In this document: piece after piece, positions 32,725 to 43,030 of the stretch
How the letters are laid out: each line of letters starts with the position of its first letter
Numbering within the stretch: the first letter of the stretch is position 1
Source: Halobaculum saliterrae
GTDB lineage: Archaea; Halobacteriota; Halobacteria; Halobacteriales; Haloferacaceae
Direction: 5' to 3'
Length of the DNA stretch: 64,000 nucleotides
NCBI RefSeq assembly: GCF_009831625.1
Contig: NZ_WUUS01000005.1
Location: 124,001 to 188,000, forward strand
Notes under the pieces: model-generated
Told to the model about the DNA's origin: nothing
The model's input: only the letters and a program-made list of their open reading frames with translations
Database searches by the model: none
Program-made: the position numbers and the translations under genes

Positions 32725-35700
32725 TCACTCCCCGTCGGGCGGCGGACAGCCGGGCGCCGCGGTCGCCACCGAGGTTTCGGTCCCGTTCGCAACGGTCGGA
32801 CACGGCCAGCCGGGGGATCGCTCGTCCGCGTTCCCGTCGACGTCGCCGACGCCCGAGGGCCCGGCCGGGACGACGACGACGACCACCGTCCAGGTCCGGA
32901 ACGCGACGCGGTCGCTCCGGCCGAGCCGTTCGGTCGCCCCGTCGCCGTCCACGTCGATCGACACGTTCCGGCCGTCGCGAACGTACCGGAGCCGTCCGGC
33001 GCCGCCGTCGGGGCCACCCACGGGCGCGGTGACCTCGAATCGGGAGTACGCGCCGGCGACTTCCACGTCCCAGACGTTCACCGTCGCGTACCAGTAGCCG
33101 GGGACGGGTGCGACCGGGAGGCCCGCGAGCACCGGCCCGAGCTTACCGTTTCCGTACCGCTCGTGGAGCCGCTCGGTGGCGTCGGTGCCCGCTCGTTTCG
33201 CTGCGGCGCGCAACTCGGCGCGACGTGCCGCACGCGTCTCGTCCACCGTGCCGGCGGTTATCGGGGAAGGGACGACGACGCTGGCGTCGGTCGCCGCGTC
33301 GGCGGTTTCGACGCGCAACCGGAGCGTTAGTCGGTCCCTGTCGGTCTCCTCCCAGTCGTCGCCGCGGGCGGCCGCGGCTCGCGCGACGGCGGCGGCGTAC
33401 GAGCCGTCGACGACCGCCGCCGTCCGCGCTCCCGTCGCCGGCCACCGACGGTTCGCGGCGCGGACCGCGGCGCGCCGGTCGGGACGGGGGAGGTCGGTCC
33501 GCCGTTCGAGCACCGCGAGCGCGCGAGAGTCGACGGCTCGAAGCTCGTCGGCGACCCGCCGGCGGAGGGTCACCCGCGCGCTCTCCTCATCCGATCCCCG
33601 GGTCGGACTCGCGTTCGTCGCCGCGGCCGTCCGGTTCGCGGCGACGAGCGCGCGCCCCGCCTCCGGAAGCGACGCGGTACGTCGTGCGGGGAGCGCGGCG
33701 TCAGTGACCGTGTCCGCGGCGTCGCCGGTGGGGACCGCGAACAGGTTCGTGTTGCGCGCGACGAGCGGATGGACGGGCTCACCGGGCGACACCGACGCGA
33801 CGTGATCGGCCTCGACAGCCGTGACTGGGAGATACCCCGGAGTTCCCCGCGGGGTGAACACCACCTCGCCGGCCCGCCACCGTCCCGCTGGCGCCGGTTC
33901 CGGCTCGGTCGCGTCGGCCGCGACCCGTGCGAGTTCGTCGATCCGTCCGTCGGCGCTCCCCCGTACCTGCCGGATCTGATCGAGGTATGCGTCGTTGCGC
34001 GCGGCCGAGCCGTCGGCCCGAGCGTCGAGTTCCGCGAGCACGGCGTCGACGTACGCCGCCCTGGCGGCCACCCGTGCCCGGTCGGCGGCGCCGTCGTAGG
34101 TCTCCGGCGCGTCGACGAGTGCCTCCCGCTGCTGTCTGATCGCCGCGGCCAGCTGTCGGGCCGCGTTCGCCTCGCCGGCGGCGACCTCGGAGCGCGGGAC
34201 ACGGACCGAAACGGCCCGGATCCGCTCGCGGAGGGCCGCCACGTCTCGGTACACCCACTGCGTGAGGACGTCCGGTCTGTCACCGTGAAGGATAGCATGG
34301 TCGGTTGTCACGTCTCGTTGAGTCCCGGCAGTCGCGACCGATCGGACCGACGCCCGTGCCTGCCGATCGACGGCTCCCGAGGGCAGCAGTTCGGCTCTCG
34401 CTGTCGCCGGGACGTCGGCGAGGTTCGGCCCGTCGACGGCGCCGCCACGGGCGAACACCGGCTCGGTCGGTCGTGCGGGGCCGGTTGAGGGGGCATGCTC
34501 GACTGAGACCGTGATCCGGACCTCGTACCGGTCGGTCCACGTCGTCGTCGTCGTCCGGAGGGTGCCGTTGGCCATCCATCGGCGCGTTACACGGTGTCTG
34601 ACGGCGACGGTCCGTCGCTCGTCAGCGACCGATCGAGGGGTCGACGCGGAGTTCGATTTCCGACCGACGATGACGATCCGCTCGTCGGTTCGTTCCGAGA
34701 GCAGCGTCCAGCCGGGGGCGGGCGGAGACGCGGGTGGTCGCCGTGATCGGCCGACCGGATCCACAGTCACTCGCCGGGTCGCCTCTACTCGGTAGGCGCC
34801 ACGAACCACGGCGTCGAAGCCGCGGGGGGAGTCGTCGTCGATGAACTCGAGGAAGGCCCGATCCGCGGTGGCGTTCACGCCGACGCGGAAGTCGTCGCCG
34901 CCGGTCCCGGAAGCGCCGTCGTTCGGGGCCCATCGATAGTCGTCCGTTGCCGCCGCCGAAGAAGCTTCATCGGCGCTCACACCGGCAGCCGACGTGCTCG
35001 CGTCGAGGACACGACCGGTCCACGACGGACCGCTCTCCATCGCCGGCGTGAGCAGGTCCCGTGCGCCCACGCGGCCGGTCGCCCTGATCAGCGCGGCCCG
35101 GCCAGCCGGGTCGCTGTGGCCGTACGTCGCACCCTGCGCGCGCAACGCTGCGGCGTTCGTCGACAGTTCCACGTGGCGAGCGGCGAGCACGTTCGAGATC
35201 GGCGCGCCGAGGTACTGTGCGGTGCCGCGAGCCTGCGCGACCGACCACAGGCGCCACGTGAGCGCACGGCCCAGTCCCGGCCCCTCGAGGGGTGAGCGGT
35301 TAAGTCGCGCTTCGTATGCAACAGTGCGGTCGTGCATCGCGAGGACGGGGACGGCCACCGCGACGGTGTAGTTCACCCGGCGGGTCGCGACAGTGTCCCC
35401 CCCGCGGGTCGCTGTGAGCGTCACGTTCCGGACGGTGACGCGCATCGCCGTTCCATTCGCGAGCGGCGCGACCGAGACGCGTTCGATGGCGGCGCGCGTG
35501 TCGTTCTGCGACTCGACCGCCGGGAGCGACGCGGTCGCCGTCACTCCGCCGGCGTCGGTCCGCGCGTCGGCCAGTGCGTCGGCGGCCGCCATCGAGATCC
35601 GCAATCGGAGCGTGTCGCGGAACGGTCGATCGGGGTCGAGCGCACGTCCCGCCGTCGTGTTTGCGGGCGCCGTTACGGGGTTGAGGGCCGCCTCACGCGC

Positions 35701-35979
35701 CGCGGCGGCCGCCGCAGTCCGGACCGCGGGTCTACCGACCGATTCAGCCCGATCGAGCGCGTCGTCCGCGGCGGTGTCGACGACGACCGGACCGCGGACC
35801 GCGAGCGTGTTCGCGTAGACGACGCTCCCGAGTAGGAGCACGACGCCGATCAACGCGAAGGGGACCAGCGCCCTGTCGCCGTCTCCGCCTCCGGCTCCGC
35901 CGGACGCGCCGAACCCGCAGGACCCGGACGATCTGGCGATCCCGATGAGCGCGGCCGTCGGGCCGTTCCGAGCACTCAT
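32725..35979 (-). CDS. Large pilus-cluster protein (DUF7286-like), one N-terminal helix
   Basis: The 1084-residue protein has one hydrophobic segment near residues 40-60 (RALVPFALIGVVLLLGSVVYANT), like the N-terminal helix of pilin-type proteins, and then a very long extracellular part. That part has many N-x-S/T sites and coiled stretches (RLRRRVADELRAVDSRAL). It is rich in Arg and Ala and has no enzymatic motif. Its ATG overlaps the previous stop by four bases (ATGA). It is the last of a four-gene run. I infer a structural or tip component of the appendage or channel. Confidence 0.75.
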   Translation of the reverse strand: MSARNGPTAALIGIARSSGSCGFGASGGAGGGDGDRALVPFALIGVVLLLGSVVYANTLAVRGPVVVDTAADDALDRAESVGRPAVRTAAAAAAREAALNPVTAPANTTAGRALDPDRPFRDTLRLRISMAAADALADARTDAGGVTATASLPAVESQNDTRAAIERVSVAPLANGTAMRVTVRNVTLTATRGGDTVATRRVNYTVAVAVPVLAMHDRTVAYEARLNRSPLEGPGLGRALTWRLWSVAQARGTAQYLGAPISNVLAARHVELSTNAAALRAQGATYGHSDPAGRAALIRATGRVGARDLLTPAMESGPSWTGRVLDASTSAAGVSADEASSAAATDDYRWAPNDGASGTGGDDFRVGVNATADRAFLEFIDDDSPRGFDAVVRGAYRVEATRRVTVDPVGRSRRPPASPPAPGWTLLSERTDERIVIVGRKSNSASTPRSVADERRTVAVRHRVTRRWMANGTLRTTTTTWTDRYEVRITVSVEHAPSTGPARPTEPVFARGGAVDGPNLADVPATARAELLPSGAVDRQARASVRSVATAGTQRDVTTDHAILHGDRPDVLTQWVYRDVAALRERIRAVSVRVPRSEVAAGEANAARQLAAAIRQQREALVDAPETYDGAADRARVAARAAYVDAVLAELDARADGSAARNDAYLDQIRQVRGSADGRIDELARVAADATEPEPAPAGRWRAGEVVFTPRGTPGYLPVTAVEADHVASVSPGEPVHPLVARNTNLFAVPTGDAADTVTDAALPARRTASLPEAGRALVAANRTAAATNASPTRGSDEESARVTLRRRVADELRAVDSRALAVLERRTDLPRPDRRAAVRAANRRWPATGARTAAVVDGSYAAAVARAAAARGDDWEETDRDRLTLRLRVETADAATDASVVVPSPITAGTVDETRAARRAELRAAAKRAGTDATERLHERYGNGKLGPVLAGLPVAPVPGYWYATVNVWDVEVAGAYSRFEVTAPVGGPDGGAGRLRYVRDGRNVSIDVDGDGATERLGRSDRVAFRTWTVVVVVVPAGPSGVGDVDGNADERSPGWPCPTVANGTETSVATAAPGCPPPDGE

Positions 35980-36851
35980 GCCGACCACGTCCTGACGACG
36001 ACGGTCACGCGCCCCGGGTCTCCGCTCCCGCATGCGTCGGGTTCCCCTGAGGGCTCCGGGGAGTCGGTCCCCGCGTGCCGGTCAGCGAGCGCTGCCGCGA
36101 GCGCACGGTTCGCCTCGCGTGGCCCGCCGCGATCCAGCGCCTCGACAGCGTCGACGCCGAGCACTGCCCCGATCCGACGGTACCGGTCCCTCACCACCCG
36201 CTCAGCCGCGTTGTCACCGCGTTCGGCGGCGGCGATCCTGTCCGGCGGAAACAGCACGGCGATCGTCCGCGCGGCGACGCCTCCAGCGGCCTCGGTGTTC
36301 GTATGCTCGGAGTCGGACGAGTCCGATGAGGGAGCCACCGGGACCGTGAACCGGGCGGCGTGGACGCTCGTCGACGCCGGGGGATGCGGCCCGATCCCGA
36401 TGGCCCCCTCGACTCGTGGTGTGCCGTCGAAGTCGTCACACGGGAGCGGACGCCAGACGGCCCGCACCCTCGTGTTCGAGCCGATCGCGTCGGCGACGGT
36501 TCTCCTGACTCCCCGGCGGTAGTCCGCGGCCGTCGGCGACGGCGCCGAACCGTCGACCGTCGCCGAACGAACCGCGGCGCGCGCGAGGTGTTCGGCGAGC
36601 GTCGCGTGAGCGACGCGCTGCGCCTCCGGTGACGCGGTTGCCCCGTCGGATTCCGCCTCCCCGCCCGCAGAGACGAGCGTGTACTCGACCGCCGACGTCG
36701 ACCCGGCGAGGGTCTCGGCCGTCTCGCTCGCCCTCGACGACGCTCCGATGTCGGGGGCGGCGGCCGCCTCCGACTCGGCACCGACGAGCGTTCCGGCGGC
36801 GGCGCCGATCAGGAGCAACGCGAGGCACACGTCGAGCAGGGATCCGGTCAT
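35976..36851 (-). CDS. Pseudopilin-like protein (DUF7284-like)
   Basis: The 291-residue protein has an N-terminal hydrophobic helix (LLDVCLALLLIGAAAGTLV) and an Ala/Ser-rich outer part. The start at 36851 gives a four-base ATGA overlap with the upstream gene; a GTG two codons earlier is possible. Its own stop overlaps the next gene in the same way. No catalytic motif is seen. By its place and shape I infer a minor pilin-like subunit. Confidence 0.7.
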   Translation of the reverse strand: MTGSLLDVCLALLLIGAAAGTLVGAESEAAAAPDIGASSRASETAETLAGSTSAVEYTLVSAGGEAESDGATASPEAQRVAHATLAEHLARAAVRSATVDGSAPSPTAADYRRGVRRTVADAIGSNTRVRAVWRPLPCDDFDGTPRVEGAIGIGPHPPASTSVHAARFTVPVAPSSDSSDSEHTNTEAAGGVAARTIAVLFPPDRIAAAERGDNAAERVVRDRYRRIGAVLGVDAVEALDRGGPREANRALAAALADRHAGTDSPEPSGEPDACGSGDPGRVTVVVRTWSA

Positions 36852-37258
36852 CGCCACACCGTGACGCGGAGTCTGCCCGGCCGGACGCGGCCGGGATCGA
36901 GCGCGACGCCGACGCGTCTGGTCGCTGTCGCTCGAATCGAGACTGGATCCGATGACTTCGGAGCCGCGTCCCCGACACGCCAGTGCCGACCGGCGACGGT
37001 CAGGGTGACGCTCGCGTTACGATCCGTTCGGGCGATCACGGATCGGACCCGGTCGAGGCGGCCGGCGTCCGCGACGCCGCCGACCGTGATCGCATCGTGA
37101 ACGCGTTCCAGCGTCGGCTCGGCGGTCGGTCCACGGTCTTCAACGCCGCTCAGAACGACCGTGTAGGCGGCGACGCCGAGCGACAGCGCGAGCACCGCCG
37201 CCAGCGCGACGGTCGGCTCGGCGAACGCGCGATCACGCGACGAGGACGAGCGTGACAT
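36848..37258 (-). CDS. Pseudopilin-like protein (DUF7285-like)
   Basis: This 136-residue protein begins with a short charged leader and then RAFAEPTVALAAVLALSLG, which closely resembles the class III signal and hydrophobic helix of archaeal pilins (cleavage expected before the hydrophobic run). The remainder is a small beta-rich domain. The ATG at 37258 lies inside the upstream gene (26-base overlap), so translation is probably coupled. I infer a pilin-like subunit. Confidence 0.7.
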   Translation of the reverse strand: MSRSSSSRDRAFAEPTVALAAVLALSLGVAAYTVVLSGVEDRGPTAEPTLERVHDAITVGGVADAGRLDRVRSVIARTDRNASVTLTVAGRHWRVGDAAPKSSDPVSIRATATRRVGVALDPGRVRPGRLRVTVWR

Positions 37259-37727
37259 CCGTCTCCCCCCACGAGACGTGTCGGACGTGCAGCGTCCGAC
37301 CCGCGGTCCAGTCGACCGCCGACTCTCCTCGCGTCGAGGTCCGCTCCGCACGTGCGGTCGCGACCGCGACGGCGAACGCTCCGGGCTCCTCGAACGCCGC
37401 GTCCGGGTGATCGCCGAGCGCGACACCCGCGAGCGGGCCGCCGGGATCGACGGGGACGACCGAGTCCGTCCCGAAGGCGGCGAACGCGCTGCCGCCGCCG
37501 GATCGCAGTGAGACGCCGCGGGTCGTCACTCTGACCCGATCGGCCGCGATCCGATAGCGGGCGGTCGCGGGCGGGTCGGCGGCGGCGACGGTGTCGACGG
37601 TCGCGGCGGCCGAGACGGCGTCGGGCGGCGGGGCGGTCGGGAGCCCCGATACCACCCCCAGCGTGACAGCGCCGGCGACGGCGAGTCCGAGCCAGGCGTA
37701 CCAAACGTCGAGAGGTGCGTCGATCAC
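37233..37727 (-). CDS. Pseudopilin-like protein (DUF7283-like), first gene of the subunit operon
   Basis: The 164-residue protein has one hydrophobic helix near the N-terminus (WYAWLGLAVAGAVTLGVVSG) and an outer domain rich in Val, Ala and Thr. It starts at a GTG at 37727. A TATA-like CAAATA ends 24 bases upstream as part of a block shared with two other genes of the cluster. It leads a tightly overlapping four-gene run. The function is unknown; a pilin-like subunit is inferred. Confidence 0.7.
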   Translation of the reverse strand: MIDAPLDVWYAWLGLAVAGAVTLGVVSGLPTAPPPDAVSAAATVDTVAAADPPATARYRIAADRVRVTTRGVSLRSGGGSAFAAFGTDSVVPVDPGGPLAGVALGDHPDAAFEEPGAFAVAVATARAERTSTRGESAVDWTAGRTLHVRHVSWGETDVTLVLVA

Positions 37728-37729
37728 GT

Positions 37730-37759
37730 GCCGGGGTGGTCCCGCTTTCGTATTTGAAC
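37730..37759 (-). promoter_or_regulatory. Shared pilus-cluster promoter block, copy 1
   Basis: Read on the plus strand, GCCGGGGTGGTCCCG is followed by CTTTCGTATTTGAAC. On the coding strand this gives GTTCAAATA with the TATA edge 24 bases from the GTG at 37727, then a GGGACCACCCC block. By my alignment, 25 of 30 positions match copy 2. Confidence 0.7.
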
Positions 37760-37770
37760 GCTCGGGGAGA

Positions 37771-39714
37771 TCAGCCGACGAGCATCGCGACCGCGGCGTG
37801 TCCAGCGACGAACGCGCCGCTCGCGGTGACGAGCGCGATCCCGACGCGGTAGCCGACGACCGTGCGGTCGAGCCCGCGCTCCAACCCCGTCGCGAGCACG
37901 GTCAGCGTCGCAGCCAGCGACAACACGTACACGCCGACGACCGGTCCGACGAGCGACGGCGAGAGCGCGGCTGCCTCCCCTGCGACAGCACCCGCGGCGG
38001 TGTGACCGGTACCGCCGCCGGTCGAACTGATACCATCGGTGGCCGAGTGGAGGCCGACGGTCCCGGATCCGCCGAGCCCGCCGAGATCGTCGAGGCGCCC
38101 CGCCAGCGCGACCGTCGCGCCGCCGACGAGTGGACCGAACAGCGCTGCCGTGTCACGGAGCGTCCCCGTCACGGTCGCCAGCTCTCGGCGAGCGGCGCGC
38201 TCCGCGCTCGCCAGCGCGTCGAGCCGATCGGCGTGCGTCACCAGCGCGTCGCCGGCGGGGCGTCCCTCCGTCGCCGCCGTGGCGATCGCGGTCACCGCTC
38301 CGGCCGCCCGACCGCCGGAACCGCGTGCGGGACCGAACGGCGCGCCGTCGCCGGCGAGCGCGTTCTCGACCGGCACGCCGAGCGCCGACCGCCGCCTGCT
38401 CGCCTCCGCGAGCGCGTCGGCCGTCGGTCCGGACAGCGACGACGCGACCGCAGGGAGGGCCCCTTCGACGGACTCGCCGTCGGCCACGCGGCGGCCCAAC
38501 AGCGCGAGTGCGTCGCTCAGCCCGCGGTCCCGCTCGTCGATCGACCGTCGTACCTCGCGACGCGGATGCAGGTGGACACAGAGTCCGACCCCGAGGCCGC
38601 AGCCGACGGCGAGCACCGGACTCGCCCACTCGCCGGCAACGAGAGGGGCCACGAACCAACCCGCGACGGCCGCCGTTGCGGCCGCCAGCAGTGCCGTTCC
38701 TCGTCCCTCGGAGACGTCGGGGTGGGTCTCGTCGATCCGGGGGGCGGAGATCGCGACCGGCCGACGGAGCAGTAGTCGGCCCGCGGCAGTCGCGACAGAC
38801 GCGGGCAACACTAGGTCGTACGTCGCGGCGAACGCCCGCGGCGGAATCGGAACGCCCGCGGCGACCGCCGCCGGAAGCGTGCCGACGAGCGCTAGCGGGA
38901 GCAGCACCCCGAACGCGTACAGCCCGGTGACCGGCGCGCGGAGATCGCCGGCGAACGACGCCGTCCGTTCGCGCAGGTCGTCCTCGACGGCGTCGACCGC
39001 ACGTTCGAGCAACCGAGTCCGATCGTCGCCCGTCTCGGCGTCGACCGCCGCGAGCAGGAGCGCGACCGAGCGATCGAGCGCCGGGAACCACTCGCTCCAC
39101 TCCGCGGCGAACGCGGAGAGTCCGCCGTCCGGGTCGCCCGTTACGGCGGCGCGATCGGCGTGTTCCCGGAGGCTTCGGTGGAGCGGGCCCGTTCCGGCGG
39201 TCGCAGCGAACCGCGCCGCGCGCTCCGGCACCGGCGCCAGCCGAAGCGAGAGCGCAAGCGCGCTCGTGACGGTCGCCGCGTCGCCGACCGCGCGCGTTCT
39301 GCCGATCGCCGCAGCGAGCACCGGCGCTCGACGGGTCACCGAGAACGCGGTCAAACCGACCGCCGCCGCGACGCCGGACGCGAACGGGGCCGCAAGCGAC
39401 GGGAGCATCGCACCGGAGAGGAGTGACCATGCCAGCGCGACAGCGAACGTACACGCTCCGAGGAGCGCGCTCACGGTCGCGGCCGCGGCCGTGATCTGTT
39501 CGGCGTCGAGGGACGGGTCGAGGAACGCGCACGCCCGGGTGAGTTCCTCGTCCGGATCGACCCAGTCGGCGTACCGGTCCGGCCACGCGCTGGCGGCGGT
39601 CTCGAGCCCGCGTCGAACGACTCCACGTCGGACCTCCGTCGACCAGTTGTGAACCCGCGAACGACTCTCTCCCCCGAGCCATCCCCGTCCGGTCAGCCAG
39701 TCCCGACCGATCAT
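37771..39714 (-). CDS. Type IV pilus/secretion membrane platform protein (PilC/TadC/FlaJ-like)
   Basis: The 647-residue protein has two copies of the T2SSF fold, with several hydrophobic helices around 80-135, 250-310, 340-385 and 570-645. In type IV pilus and archaellum systems this protein is the inner-membrane platform that the ATPase drives. The start overlaps the ATPase stop by four bases (ATGA), the usual arrangement for this pair. The N-terminal 80 residues are soluble and include ADWVDPDEELTRACAFLDP, typical of haloarchaeal PilC-type proteins. Confidence 0.87.
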   Translation of the reverse strand: MIGRDWLTGRGWLGGESRSRVHNWSTEVRRGVVRRGLETAASAWPDRYADWVDPDEELTRACAFLDPSLDAEQITAAAATVSALLGACTFAVALAWSLLSGAMLPSLAAPFASGVAAAVGLTAFSVTRRAPVLAAAIGRTRAVGDAATVTSALALSLRLAPVPERAARFAATAGTGPLHRSLREHADRAAVTGDPDGGLSAFAAEWSEWFPALDRSVALLLAAVDAETGDDRTRLLERAVDAVEDDLRERTASFAGDLRAPVTGLYAFGVLLPLALVGTLPAAVAAGVPIPPRAFAATYDLVLPASVATAAGRLLLRRPVAISAPRIDETHPDVSEGRGTALLAAATAAVAGWFVAPLVAGEWASPVLAVGCGLGVGLCVHLHPRREVRRSIDERDRGLSDALALLGRRVADGESVEGALPAVASSLSGPTADALAEASRRRSALGVPVENALAGDGAPFGPARGSGGRAAGAVTAIATAATEGRPAGDALVTHADRLDALASAERAARRELATVTGTLRDTAALFGPLVGGATVALAGRLDDLGGLGGSGTVGLHSATDGISSTGGGTGHTAAGAVAGEAAALSPSLVGPVVGVYVLSLAATLTVLATGLERGLDRTVVGYRVGIALVTASGAFVAGHAAVAMLVG

Positions 39715-41765
39715 CGGTCGGAAACCGCGTCGATCCCGCTCACGTCGGTCCTGTCGACGCCGGCGAGGGCTCCGATCCCCCGCCCGCGGCGACCGATCGC
39801 CTCGCGGACGTCGGCGTACGTCTCGCCCGGACAGGCGAGGTCGGCGACGACGGTGCTCTCGCCCCGGTCGATCACACGCGTCGCGACCGCCGCGGTCCCA
39901 TCGGCGTCGTCGGTGGCTCCCCCCTCGCTGCCGATTCTCCGACCACTGCCGTCGCTTTCGGGTCCGTTCCCGCGGCTCGCGATCCGCACGAGGTCCCCGG
40001 GATCGGGTCCCCGAACCTCCTCGATCGACGCCAGCGCGCGGTCGGGGCCGAGCGTGACGACCAGATCGGTCGCGGCGAACGACGACGCCGGCACGCCGAG
40101 GTCGGAGACGACGCGCTCCCGGACCGCCTCGCCGCCGGTCCCGTGGATCGTCCCCAGGACGGCGTCGCTTGCGGCGCCGACGCGCATCGCCTCGTACAGC
40201 GCCCGCGCCTCGGAGCCGCGGACCTCGCCGACGACCAGCGCCCCCTCGCCCAGTCTGAGGGCGGTTCGGACGGCGTCAGTCGGCGCGAGCGCGTCGTCCC
40301 GATCGGTACCGGCGTGCAGCGGCTGTACGTCTCGTCCGGTGCCGCGGATCGCCGCGACCGGGAGTTCGGGGGTGTCCTCGATCAGCACCGTCCGGGCGTC
40401 GACGGGGACCTCCATGCACAGCGCGCCGAGCAGCGAGGTCTTTCCCGCCCCGCGGGGGCCGGCGACGAGGACCGCGGCGCCGCGCTCGACCGCGACCGAC
40501 AGGAGCCCGGCAGCTCGCTCGCGGATGGAACCGACGGAGACGAGCCGGGGGAGCGTCCACGGGTCGTCGTCGCGGCGGCGGAACGCGAACCCCCGGCCGT
40601 CGCTCGCGGGCGCCGTGACCCCCGCGACGCGAACGTCGCCGAGCGCGGCATCCGTCGTCGGCGACACACGCGAGAACGCTCGTCCGCTCGACGCGCGGAC
40701 TCTGGACGCCAACGCGTCCAGGTCGGCACGGGAGAACCGGACGTTGGTCGTCATCGTCTCGTCGTCGACGATCGCCCGGAGTTCCCGGTCGGCCGCCGGT
40801 CCAGACAGGAACGCGTCGCTCACGCGGTCGTCGGCGAACAGCTCGTCCAACACGCCCATCCCTCGAGTGTGGCGACGCAGCGCCGCCGCCAGGGAGTCGA
40901 TCGGGATCGGATTCGACGGCTCCCCGGGGCCGTCGTCGGAGCGCCGATCGGCGACGGTGCGACGGACGGCACGGCGATGGGAGCGCGGGCCGTGTGGAAC
41001 GGAGCCGTCGGCGAGCAGGTCGACCGCCCCCGCAAGCACGTCCAGTGCGTCCGCCGAGAACGTTCGTTCCGCGGGCGTGAGGTGATAGTGTGGAACGCCG
41101 TCCGGCCGGTCGTACACGCTCGCGCTCCCGCCCGTCGGCAACCCCTGAGTCTCCCGGAGCACGGCGCCGGACGGCGGCGCTGGCCGGGTTCGCCCCACCG
41201 CTGCCGTCGAGGCGACGCTCGCGGCAAGCGACACCGCGGATCCCCCGGCGTCGCCACGGACATCCGCCCACGCCGAGAACCCCGTCTCGGCCGCGAGTCG
41301 AGCGACCGGACCGGCGCGCCCGACGGCCTCGCGGGCGACCGCGACGGGGTCCGTGAGGACACGCTCGGCCACGGTCGGATGGCGGCCCTCGACCGCGTCC
41401 GCGAACCGCCCGGCGGAACACAACAACGCGGCCGACTCCCCCTCGTAGAACCGATCGAGTCCGCCGATTCGGACACGGACGAGGTCGGCGTCACGCTCGG
41501 TGAGCGCGTCGATCACCGTCGCCCTGCACGCCGGATCCGTCGAGAGATCGCCCCCCGAACACGCCGACGCATCGACGCGAAGTATCGCTGGATCGCTCAA
41601 CCCGGCGCGGCCGGGAGCCGATCCGTACCCGGGACCCGACCCGTACCCGGAACCAGAACCGCCGTCGAACTCGGTGTCGCAGCGACAACCGCTCCCGACG
41701 GGGGTCCGCTCGTCGGCGCTCCGCCCGTCGCCGACGCGGTCACGGATGTCGTCGATGAATCGCAT
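39711..41765 (-). CDS. Type IV pilus/secretion assembly ATPase (T2SSE/VirB11-like)
   Basis: The 684-residue ATPase has Walker A GPRGAGKTS near residues 436-444, an Asp-box-like IEDTPELP, and Walker B-type GALVVGEVRGSEARAL, followed by a GTIHGTGGEAVRERV His-box. These hexameric motors power pilus or archaellum assembly. The N-terminus has a Cys-rich CRC motif and a Gly/Tyr/Ser-rich spacer before ACSGGDLS. The ATG at 41765 is supported by the shared promoter block, whose TATA edge is 23 bases upstream. It is followed directly by the platform gene. Confidence 0.9.
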   Translation of the reverse strand: MRFIDDIRDRVGDGRSADERTPVGSGCRCDTEFDGGSGSGYGSGPGYGSAPGRAGLSDPAILRVDASACSGGDLSTDPACRATVIDALTERDADLVRVRIGGLDRFYEGESAALLCSAGRFADAVEGRHPTVAERVLTDPVAVAREAVGRAGPVARLAAETGFSAWADVRGDAGGSAVSLAASVASTAAVGRTRPAPPSGAVLRETQGLPTGGSASVYDRPDGVPHYHLTPAERTFSADALDVLAGAVDLLADGSVPHGPRSHRRAVRRTVADRRSDDGPGEPSNPIPIDSLAAALRRHTRGMGVLDELFADDRVSDAFLSGPAADRELRAIVDDETMTTNVRFSRADLDALASRVRASSGRAFSRVSPTTDAALGDVRVAGVTAPASDGRGFAFRRRDDDPWTLPRLVSVGSIRERAAGLLSVAVERGAAVLVAGPRGAGKTSLLGALCMEVPVDARTVLIEDTPELPVAAIRGTGRDVQPLHAGTDRDDALAPTDAVRTALRLGEGALVVGEVRGSEARALYEAMRVGAASDAVLGTIHGTGGEAVRERVVSDLGVPASSFAATDLVVTLGPDRALASIEEVRGPDPGDLVRIASRGNGPESDGSGRRIGSEGGATDDADGTAAVATRVIDRGESTVVADLACPGETYADVREAIGRRGRGIGALAGVDRTDVSGIDAVSDR

Positions 41766-42283
41766 GGCCGGGGTGGTCCCGTTTCGCTACTTGAACCTGC
41801 ACCCGCACTCGACCGATCGAGCAGTCGAACCCGTATTCGTCGCTCGTCCGCATCGGAACCGGCACTCACGGGGACCAGCGAGAGGAACACTCGTCGACTA
41901 CGGTCGAGCGCGATCCCGCCGTTCGGGAGGTCGTACGGAGCCGAGAGCGTCGTCCGTGAGTGAGCGGCGTCGCCGACTGCGTGGATCAGGACTGCGGTTC
42001 CGCGCTCGGCACCCGGACACAGCGAGAGCGATCGAACGGGCGCGGTCCCGATCGATTCCCCGGGGACGGCCACCGACACGACGCGCCGCGCGGTCGGGGC
42101 CGACCCGAGGGACGACCGACGTTCCGGTTCGCCGGCGAGCGCCGACCGCGCGGCGCGATCGATCCGGTCGGGGACGCGCTCGACCGCGGCGGTCGTCCGA
42201 TCGACCCGGGCGGTCTCGACGGCCGGGAGCGACGCCGAAAGCAGCGCCGCGGCCACCGCGACCGCGACGACCACGCGGATCAC
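41597..42283 (-). CDS. Exported pilus-cluster protein (DUF7311-like) with run-on C-terminus
   Basis: This 228-residue protein has an N-terminal hydrophobic segment (VVVAVAVAAALLSASLP) that may be a signal or anchor, followed by a conserved-looking domain up to about residue 155. The last 70 residues are low in complexity (S, T, P, G) and run over the ATPase promoter block and the first 169 bases of the ATPase gene in another frame. A stop may have been lost by a small indel. The GTG start overlaps the stop of the previous gene by four bases. The function is unknown. Confidence 0.6.
   Translation of the reverse strand: MIRVVVAVAVAAALLSASLPAVETARVDRTTAAVERVPDRIDRAARSALAGEPERRSSLGSAPTARRVVSVAVPGESIGTAPVRSLSLCPGAERGTAVLIHAVGDAAHSRTTLSAPYDLPNGGIALDRSRRVFLSLVPVSAGSDADERRIRVRLLDRSSAGAGSSSETGPPRPCDSSTTSVTASATGGAPTSGPPSGAVVAATPSSTAVLVPGTGRVPGTDRLPAAPG
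41767..41796 (-). promoter_or_regulatory. Shared pilus-cluster promoter block, copy 2
   Basis: Read on the plus strand, GCCGGGGTGGTCCCG is followed by TTTCGCTACTTGAAC. On the coding strand the TATA-like CAAGTA ends 23 bases from the ATPase ATG, and the GGGACCACCCC block lies between. It is located inside the overlapping upstream reading frame. Confidence 0.7.
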
Positions 42284-42861
42284 AGCGCGTCGCGCAGCCG
42301 CTCGACGAGCGGCGAGTCGTCGTCGGTCGGATCATCCGCCCGGTCGATCGGATCAGTTTGCGTGGCGGTCCCACAGCACTCGGACTCGGCTCGCGAAGGA
42401 TTCGGCTCGGCCGGTACCTCCCGGGCAGCGGTCGACGGCTCCTGATCCGGCAGATCGGGGGGCGACGACTCCCGATCCGGATCGGCTCGCGTCGGCCCGT
42501 CTCGACCTTCGGTCTCCCGTGTCGCGGCGAGCGCCCGGTCGGCGCGTCGCTCGACGCGTTCGTTCACGGCGCGTATCGACCCGACGTAGCCGCGCAGCGC
42601 CTGCGTGGCCGACTCGAGTTCGGCGACGCGCGACTCGAGGTCGTCGAGTCGAGTCGACGCGCGTCGCAGCTCGGCGGTGGCCTCGGCGGCGTCCGCGAGG
42701 TCCGTCAGATCGGCGTCGGTGTCGCCCGTACATGCCCGTTCGACGGCAGCGATCCGGGACCGGAGGTTATCGGCGGTGGCCGTCGTGGCGGCGGAACCGT
42801 CGTCGGTGTTCGTCCCTTCCCCGTCCTCGATCGGGAGTCGGTCGGCGATATCGCGTGACAT
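42280..42861 (-). CDS. Coiled-coil protein of the pilus cluster (DUF7310-like)
   Basis: This 193-residue soluble protein has a coiled coil at about residues 55-115 (RRASTRLDDLESRVAELESATQ) and an acidic, proline-rich tail with a CC pair (ESECCGTATQ). No membrane segment is seen. Its stop overlaps the start of the next gene (GTGA). It leads the cluster and has the shared promoter block upstream. By position it may regulate or link the motor to the cytoplasm; this is inference. Confidence 0.72.
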   Translation of the reverse strand: MSRDIADRLPIEDGEGTNTDDGSAATTATADNLRSRIAAVERACTGDTDADLTDLADAAEATAELRRASTRLDDLESRVAELESATQALRGYVGSIRAVNERVERRADRALAATRETEGRDGPTRADPDRESSPPDLPDQEPSTAAREVPAEPNPSRAESECCGTATQTDPIDRADDPTDDDSPLVERLRDAL

Positions 42862-42862
42862 G

Positions 42863-42892
42863 AGGGGGCTGGCCGCGCCCTCCTATTTGAAC
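42863..42892 (-). promoter_or_regulatory. Shared pilus-cluster promoter block, copy 3
   Basis: Read on the plus strand, GGGGGCTGGCCGCGC is followed by CCTCCTATTTGAAC. The coding strand gives GTTCAAATA with its edge 23 bases from the ATG at 42861. The GG-C-CC block is less exact than in copies 1 and 2 but at the same distance. Confidence 0.6.
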
Positions 42893-43030
42893 TTCGAGGC
42901 CGGTGCCCCGGACGGTCGGGGATCGGAACTCGTGGACGGCGTCCCATCTGCGGCGACTTCGTCACGACGAGAGCGATCTCGCCGCGACCGTGGGAAGATT
43001 CAAGCGCTCGGCTGTGCGAACTCCGTGCGT

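Follow-up and report, generated by a model that had tools for sequence, protein, structure and literature searches.

A G/C-rich box in fixed register with TATA precedes the units of a pilus-like cluster and a predicted multi-copy, pseudoknotted RNA in haloarchaea

In Sulfolobus acidocaldarius, the ups and UV-inducible promoters carry a conserved hexanucleotide that precedes the core promoter elements; the motif is found on 214 genes, and the pili serve aggregation and DNA exchange (PMC5817253). The basal promoter of haloarchaea comprises a BRE (CGAAA), a TATA element (TTWT), and an A/T-rich WW at -10/-11 (PMC4983044). Small RNAs that associate with ribosomes and have no protein product have been described in Haloferax volcanii (PMC12482152). 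Here we report a promoter box in Halobaculum saliterrae, its register and conservation, and its occurrence before pilus-like genes and structured RNAs. As in the Sulfolobus ups system, a single short, non-palindromic motif is shared by promoters of pilus genes and of many others in an archaeon. The box differs, however, in its sequence, in its position downstream of TATA, and in standing mainly before non-coding RNAs. With the haloarchaeal basal promoter it shares a BRE-like CGAA and a TATA-like element about 27 nt before the start, a leaderless distance, whereas a G/C-rich RRCCA (about -13 to -9 from the start codon) replaces WW and the TATA element often reads TTCAARTA instead of TTWT.

The window analyzed is a 64,000-nt stretch of contig NZ_WUUS01000005.1 (positions 124,001 to 188,000), and all coordinates below refer to it. 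Its pilus-like cluster lies on the minus strand, and the proteins were assigned with Pfam and NCBIfam. The downstream unit begins with a DUF7283 gene that has a GTG start (37233..37727; PF23954, E = 8e-43); the rest of this unit consists of DUF7285, DUF7284, and DUF7286 genes (32725..37426; PF23956, PF23955, PF23957), with the DUF7285 ORF running from 37426 and its domain beginning at about 37195. The cluster contains a T2SSE-type assembly ATPase, a type II/IV secretion-type, TadA/PilB-like motor (39711..41765), which scored above the cut-off for PF00437 and below the curated cut-off for TIGR03819. Between the ATPase and DUF7283 lies a gene for a hydrophobic protein (37771..39714), a neighbor conserved in related genomes; it gave no Pfam match and, by its position only, may be TadC/PilC-like. 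The third unit opens with a DUF7310 coiled-coil protein gene (42280..42861; PF23991, E = 5e-27), and its second gene is a DUF7311 ORF (41597..42283) whose PF23993 match covers residues 1–140 of 228 only. The preliminary description had named the units after a motor, a coiled coil, and a subunit. The first two names agree with the ATPase and DUF7310 assignments, while DUF7283 is a conserved protein of unknown function and only a putative subunit.

Each of the three units is preceded by the same arrangement on the minus strand (given 5′ to 3′). Upstream of the DUF7283 start at 37727 we found GTTCAAATA-CGAAAGC-GGGACCACCCCGGCAC directly before GTG (whole region, GTTCAAATACGAAAGCGGGACCACCCCGGCAC). 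The TATA-like element GTTCAAATA occupies 37751..37759, and the box GGGACCA (37737..37743), inside a longer block, GGGACCACCCCGG, begins 7 nt after it, placing the RRCCA core 9 nt after the TATA element. Upstream of the ATPase start at 41765 the sequence is GTTCAAGTA-GCGAAAC-GGGACCACCCCGGCC directly before ATG (whole region, GTTCAAGTAGCGAAACGGGACCACCCCGGCC), with the TATA-like element GTTCAAGTA at 41788..41796 and GGGACCA, again in the block GGGACCACCCCGG, at 41774..41780. Upstream of the DUF7310 start at 42861 it is GTTCAAATA-GGAGGGC-GCGGCCAGCCCCCTC directly before ATG (whole region, GTTCAAATAGGAGGGCGCGGCCAGCCCCCTC), with the TATA-like element GTTCAAATA at 42884..42892 and GCGGCCA at 42870..42876. 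The RRCCA core stands 13–14 nt before the start codon at these sites. An element between TATA and start that is common to three separate units in fixed register, as had been proposed, was therefore found at all three. Between the end of GTTCAARTA and the start codon lie 23, 22, and 22 bases (the earlier figure of 23–24 counts one more), and sites 1 and 2 agreed at 25 of 30 positions in an ungapped count, as stated before. The third site, described as weaker but at the same distance, does keep the register, but it is not a mere weak look-alike: it carries the GCGGCCA form of the box. The TATA-to-start distance fits leaderless transcription, in line with the original suggestion.

The three sites stood out clearly from the rest of the window. 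A model of 50 pilus promoters, three of which came from this window, recovered them with E = 8e-10, 2e-8, and 9e-7, with the next match at 0.38. A matrix built without the window's genus, from 89 sites of other genera, again placed the three on top (38.1, 30.8, and 29.0 bits; next 11.3), and the best of 120 random strands reached 17.7 bits. In the 3.78 Mb genome, GGGACCACCCC occurred 7 times against 0 for the reversed control, and the full composite was found without mismatch at sites 1 and 2 only. Chance resemblance and duplicated upstream DNA were ruled out by the genus-excluded matrix together with the deep conservation described below. We also rejected a tRNA T-arm reading of TTCAAATC...CCA, because no paired T-stem was seen and the element stands before ordinary coding starts. 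The DUF7311 frame extends 168 nt into the ATPase gene, through site 2 (41597–41800), and similar overlaps occur in some congeners. It is the C-terminal part of DUF7311, beyond the Pfam match, that overlaps site 2 and the ATPase start. Coding constraint from this frame was dismissed as the cause of the block, since the Pfam match ends before the site and sites 1 and 3 lie outside the frame. Separately, a TTCAAGCG element is similarly spaced before a divergent CetZ/FtsZ-like gene (43000–43030), where there is no RRCCA box.

DUF7283 was detected in 123 of 148 family genomes, and the cluster region was inspected in 60 of them. The expectation that the block would recur before the same gene families in relatives was borne out: in nearly all of about 60 genomes the box precedes both the ATPase, across related genera, and DUF7283. 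A scripted count covered 57 DUF7283 and 50 ATPase sites. The layout in relatives is a TATA-like element, 9 nt, and RRCCA, located 13–14 nt before the ATPase and DUF7283 starts, and the box is present whether the TATA element reads TTCAAGTA or TTTATATA. The box also precedes DUF7310 in many genera, with 30 of 55 sites counted automatically under strict criteria and more visible with a looser TATA. When 113 sites from this and related genomes were anchored on RRCCA, the second T of TATA was present in 100% and the main A in 97%. The register between box and TATA is thus exact, while the distance to the start codon shifts by one (13 or 14).

We then searched for the box in the whole genome. The consensus TTCAARTACGAANNCGGGACCA gave 18 sites at three or fewer mismatches and 0 in the reversed control. 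The pilus-only model gave 13 matches at E < 1e-4, namely the 3 pilus sites, 8 loci of an RNA, a gene for a Cas4-like protein (TIGR00372, below its cut-off), and one more non-coding locus. The 8 RNA loci have no long ORF at a leaderless distance and show a common RNA-like segment instead. Weaker matches included further copies of the RNA and some genes, and several of the putative regulon proteins were weak matches (E = 1e-3 to 0.3). Besides the Cas4-like gene, the box was found before genes for a secreted phospholipase-D protein (PF13091), DUF7382, DUF7857, a NucS_N/zinc-ribbon protein, an unnamed protein of about 150 residues, and a Rad3/DinG-like helicase, whose likely start is further from the box. 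Much of the same target set carries the box in congeners. A second non-coding segment under the box, CACGGGCGATGGGNCGCGCCCGTCCGGCTCGCGAGCC, is nearly invariant in five Halobaculum genomes (L090, L297, L312, L318, L329), and a third conserved segment reads CCGGACG ... ACAGTCCGCGT ... GGCCGAGC (L103, L293, L327, L330). The preliminary description had envisaged a regulator site restricted to the pilus-like cluster and had counted a block common before unrelated genes as evidence against it; in part, this is what we found. Although the box does occur at all three pilus units in many genera, most sites genome-wide precede non-coding RNAs or unrelated proteins, and specificity for the cluster is not supported, a private site being highly improbable unless those further sites are inactive.

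The predicted RNA has a regular architecture. Its 5′ part consists of a TATA-like element, seven nucleotides, GGRACCA, 8–9 nt, a start codon, one or two sense codons, and a stop codon. After the stop, usually 6–8 nt lead to a P2 stem, mostly of 8–10 bp, whose sequence differs in each copy; the loop (GCGGGTGY, then GCGRYN) is followed by P2′, a linker, the complement of GCGRYN, and CTGTCAGCC or CTGTTCGCC. The RNA has a covarying P2 stem and a loop pseudoknot. The loop-to-tail pseudoknot pairs in 11 of 11 copies at six positions, and both sides change at several of them. In a separate set, retrieved with a pattern restricted to the loop and 3′ end, the less constrained positions showed pairing in 97 of 108 cases, compared with 67 ± 4 when partners were shuffled, although the search pattern itself fixed part of the pairing. 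P2 averaged 9.3 bp, against 5.4 with swapped partners and 3–6 in chance bacterial matches. The RNA matched no Rfam 15 covariance model at the gathering score or at E ≤ 0.5. A viral origin was set aside since a strict pattern found no match among IMG/VR viral contigs, and a C/D-box guide RNA was likewise rejected, because neither canonical C/D boxes nor an Rfam match turned up. Neither the box nor the RNA was mentioned in the open-access papers searched, an incomplete set.

Copies of the RNA are numerous. A model built from the RNA alone, with the promoter left out, found 15–21 copies in each of 11 Halobaculum genomes and detected the RNA in 45 of 60 family genomes, with up to 25 copies each; class-wide it occurred in 20 of 43 genera and was nearly absent from one large family (f4). 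In the converse test, RNAs found by this promoter-free model or by the pattern carried the box at the same distance. The genome studied here has RNA loci at L091, L093, L094, L096, L097, L099, L100, L105, L106, L111, L112, L114, L117, and L119–L123, and none lies within the window. According to a simple coding-potential caller, the next downstream gene is on the opposite strand in 16 of 17 own-genome copies, so the RNA is unlikely to be a cis leader of that gene. In these 16 copies the RNA and the next gene face each other, and the distance from the RNA end to the gene's stop codon is often no more than a few tens of bases. It might be supposed that the block belongs to a transcribed leader or structured RNA and not to a promoter, given that it precedes a structured RNA in most genomic copies. 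We consider this very unlikely: the pilus genes have an ordinary coding start after the box, the RNA is absent from the window, the element opens with BRE and TATA, and the TATA-to-start distance fits leaderless genes. The box is kept before the pilus cluster in genomes without detected RNA (e.g., G022), and the congeners G003 and G009 have 20 and 17 RNA copies with no DUF7283 detected. The RNA is therefore independent of DUF7283, and the cluster and the RNA are not obligate partners.

The start-stop frame was examined in 137 distinct copies picked by the loop, P2, pseudoknot, and CTGT only. A start codon with a close in-frame stop was present in 127 of them (119 by script and 8 by eye) and missing from 10, in a set partly fetched with a model that favors the usual 5′ end. 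The 119 scripted copies had the box and an in-frame start-stop at 13–15 nt, with one sense codon in 110 and two in 9; the stop was TGA in 115, TAG in 2, and TAA in 2. In one of the 8 copies read by eye, ATG is directly followed by TAG, and at four RNA starts the codon is ATC, which does not normally serve as a start. The less biased pattern-found set showed the start-stop in 50 of 62 copies by script and 56 by eye, compared with 0 of 16 chance bacterial matches. A closing helix joining the 5′ end to the 3′ CCTGTCAGCC was rejected as inconsistent across copies; because of this inconsistency, because TAA and TAG also occur, and because 3-nt insertions keep the frame, we prefer to read the conserved UGA as a stop. 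The stop-codon swaps and frame-keeping length changes, which amount to few independent changes, appear to favor a real stop over a purely structural motif.

We propose that the block is probably the -10-region box of a dedicated haloarchaeal promoter class that serves a regulon and is read by a putative dedicated factor. The promoter would consist of a BRE-like CGAA, the TATA-like element, exactly 9 nt, and an RRCCA core, mostly in the form GGRCCA or GCGGCCA; transcripts would begin at the start codon or right beside it. The factor, either a regulator or a specialized TFB/TBP set, would recognize the box at its fixed spacing from TATA and thereby co-express the regulon. In Halobaculum, this would include the three pilus-like units, about 20 copies of the pseudoknotted start-stop RNA, both of the further conserved non-coding segments, and a few genes for DNA-processing, surface, or unknown proteins. 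The G/C-rich sequence at -10/-11 in place of WW suggests that promoter opening may have other needs, and together with the exact register it points to a candidate factor that acts with, or is part of, the basal machinery. The same register, exact to one base, is more what one would expect of the basal machinery than of a site for a classical repressor or activator, and it could come from a contact of ordinary TFB or RNA polymerase. The box might then be a variant core-promoter contact at strong or constitutive promoters, with no dedicated regulator. This we regard as rather unlikely, since only a few dozen sites exist per genome and the same targets are repeated across species. Moreover, TTCAARTA lay 18–26 nt before RTG at 18 places, 10 of them with the box, versus 14 places for the reversed control, and so at that distance it is not itself a common promoter form.

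For the RNA under the proposed dedicated promoter class, we consider a function at the ribosome the most likely. A 70S ribosome would load on the leaderless start codon, meet the stop after one or two codons, and be held against the pseudoknot a few nucleotides on; both the leaderless start-stop frame and the spacing of the pseudoknot suggest such ribosome capture. Tentatively, and with less than even confidence, we put forward a previously undescribed class of RNA spread through the haloarchaea at up to about 25 copies per genome, leaderless, with a start-stop frame and an H-type pseudoknot positioned so that it would press on a ribosome at the stop, which would be co-controlled with the pilus-like machine and DNA-processing genes and act as a ribosome-capturing regulator. 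Some retroviruses have stop-codon readthrough elements with an H-type pseudoknot. The RNA resembles these in its stop codon, short spacer, and H-type pseudoknot but differs in having only one or two sense codons before the stop and no conserved frame after it. Like the H. volcanii small RNAs, a leaderless start-stop RNA would be expected to show ribosome occupancy and no protein product. A function in DNA exchange or on the cell surface is offered only as a hypothesis, the link to DNA exchange being drawn by analogy with the Sulfolobus ups promoters (PMC5817253).

These results turn a local promoter resemblance into a testable regulon, in which one G/C-rich box in exact register with TATA ties a conserved and unexplained pilus-like machine to a multi-copy structured RNA that Rfam lacks. 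If reading the box requires a dedicated factor, the selection of promoter classes in archaea could be studied here in a clean system. Should the RNAs capture ribosomes, they would constitute a translational regulator of a new kind and might account for the haloarchaeal small RNAs that are found on ribosomes without a protein.
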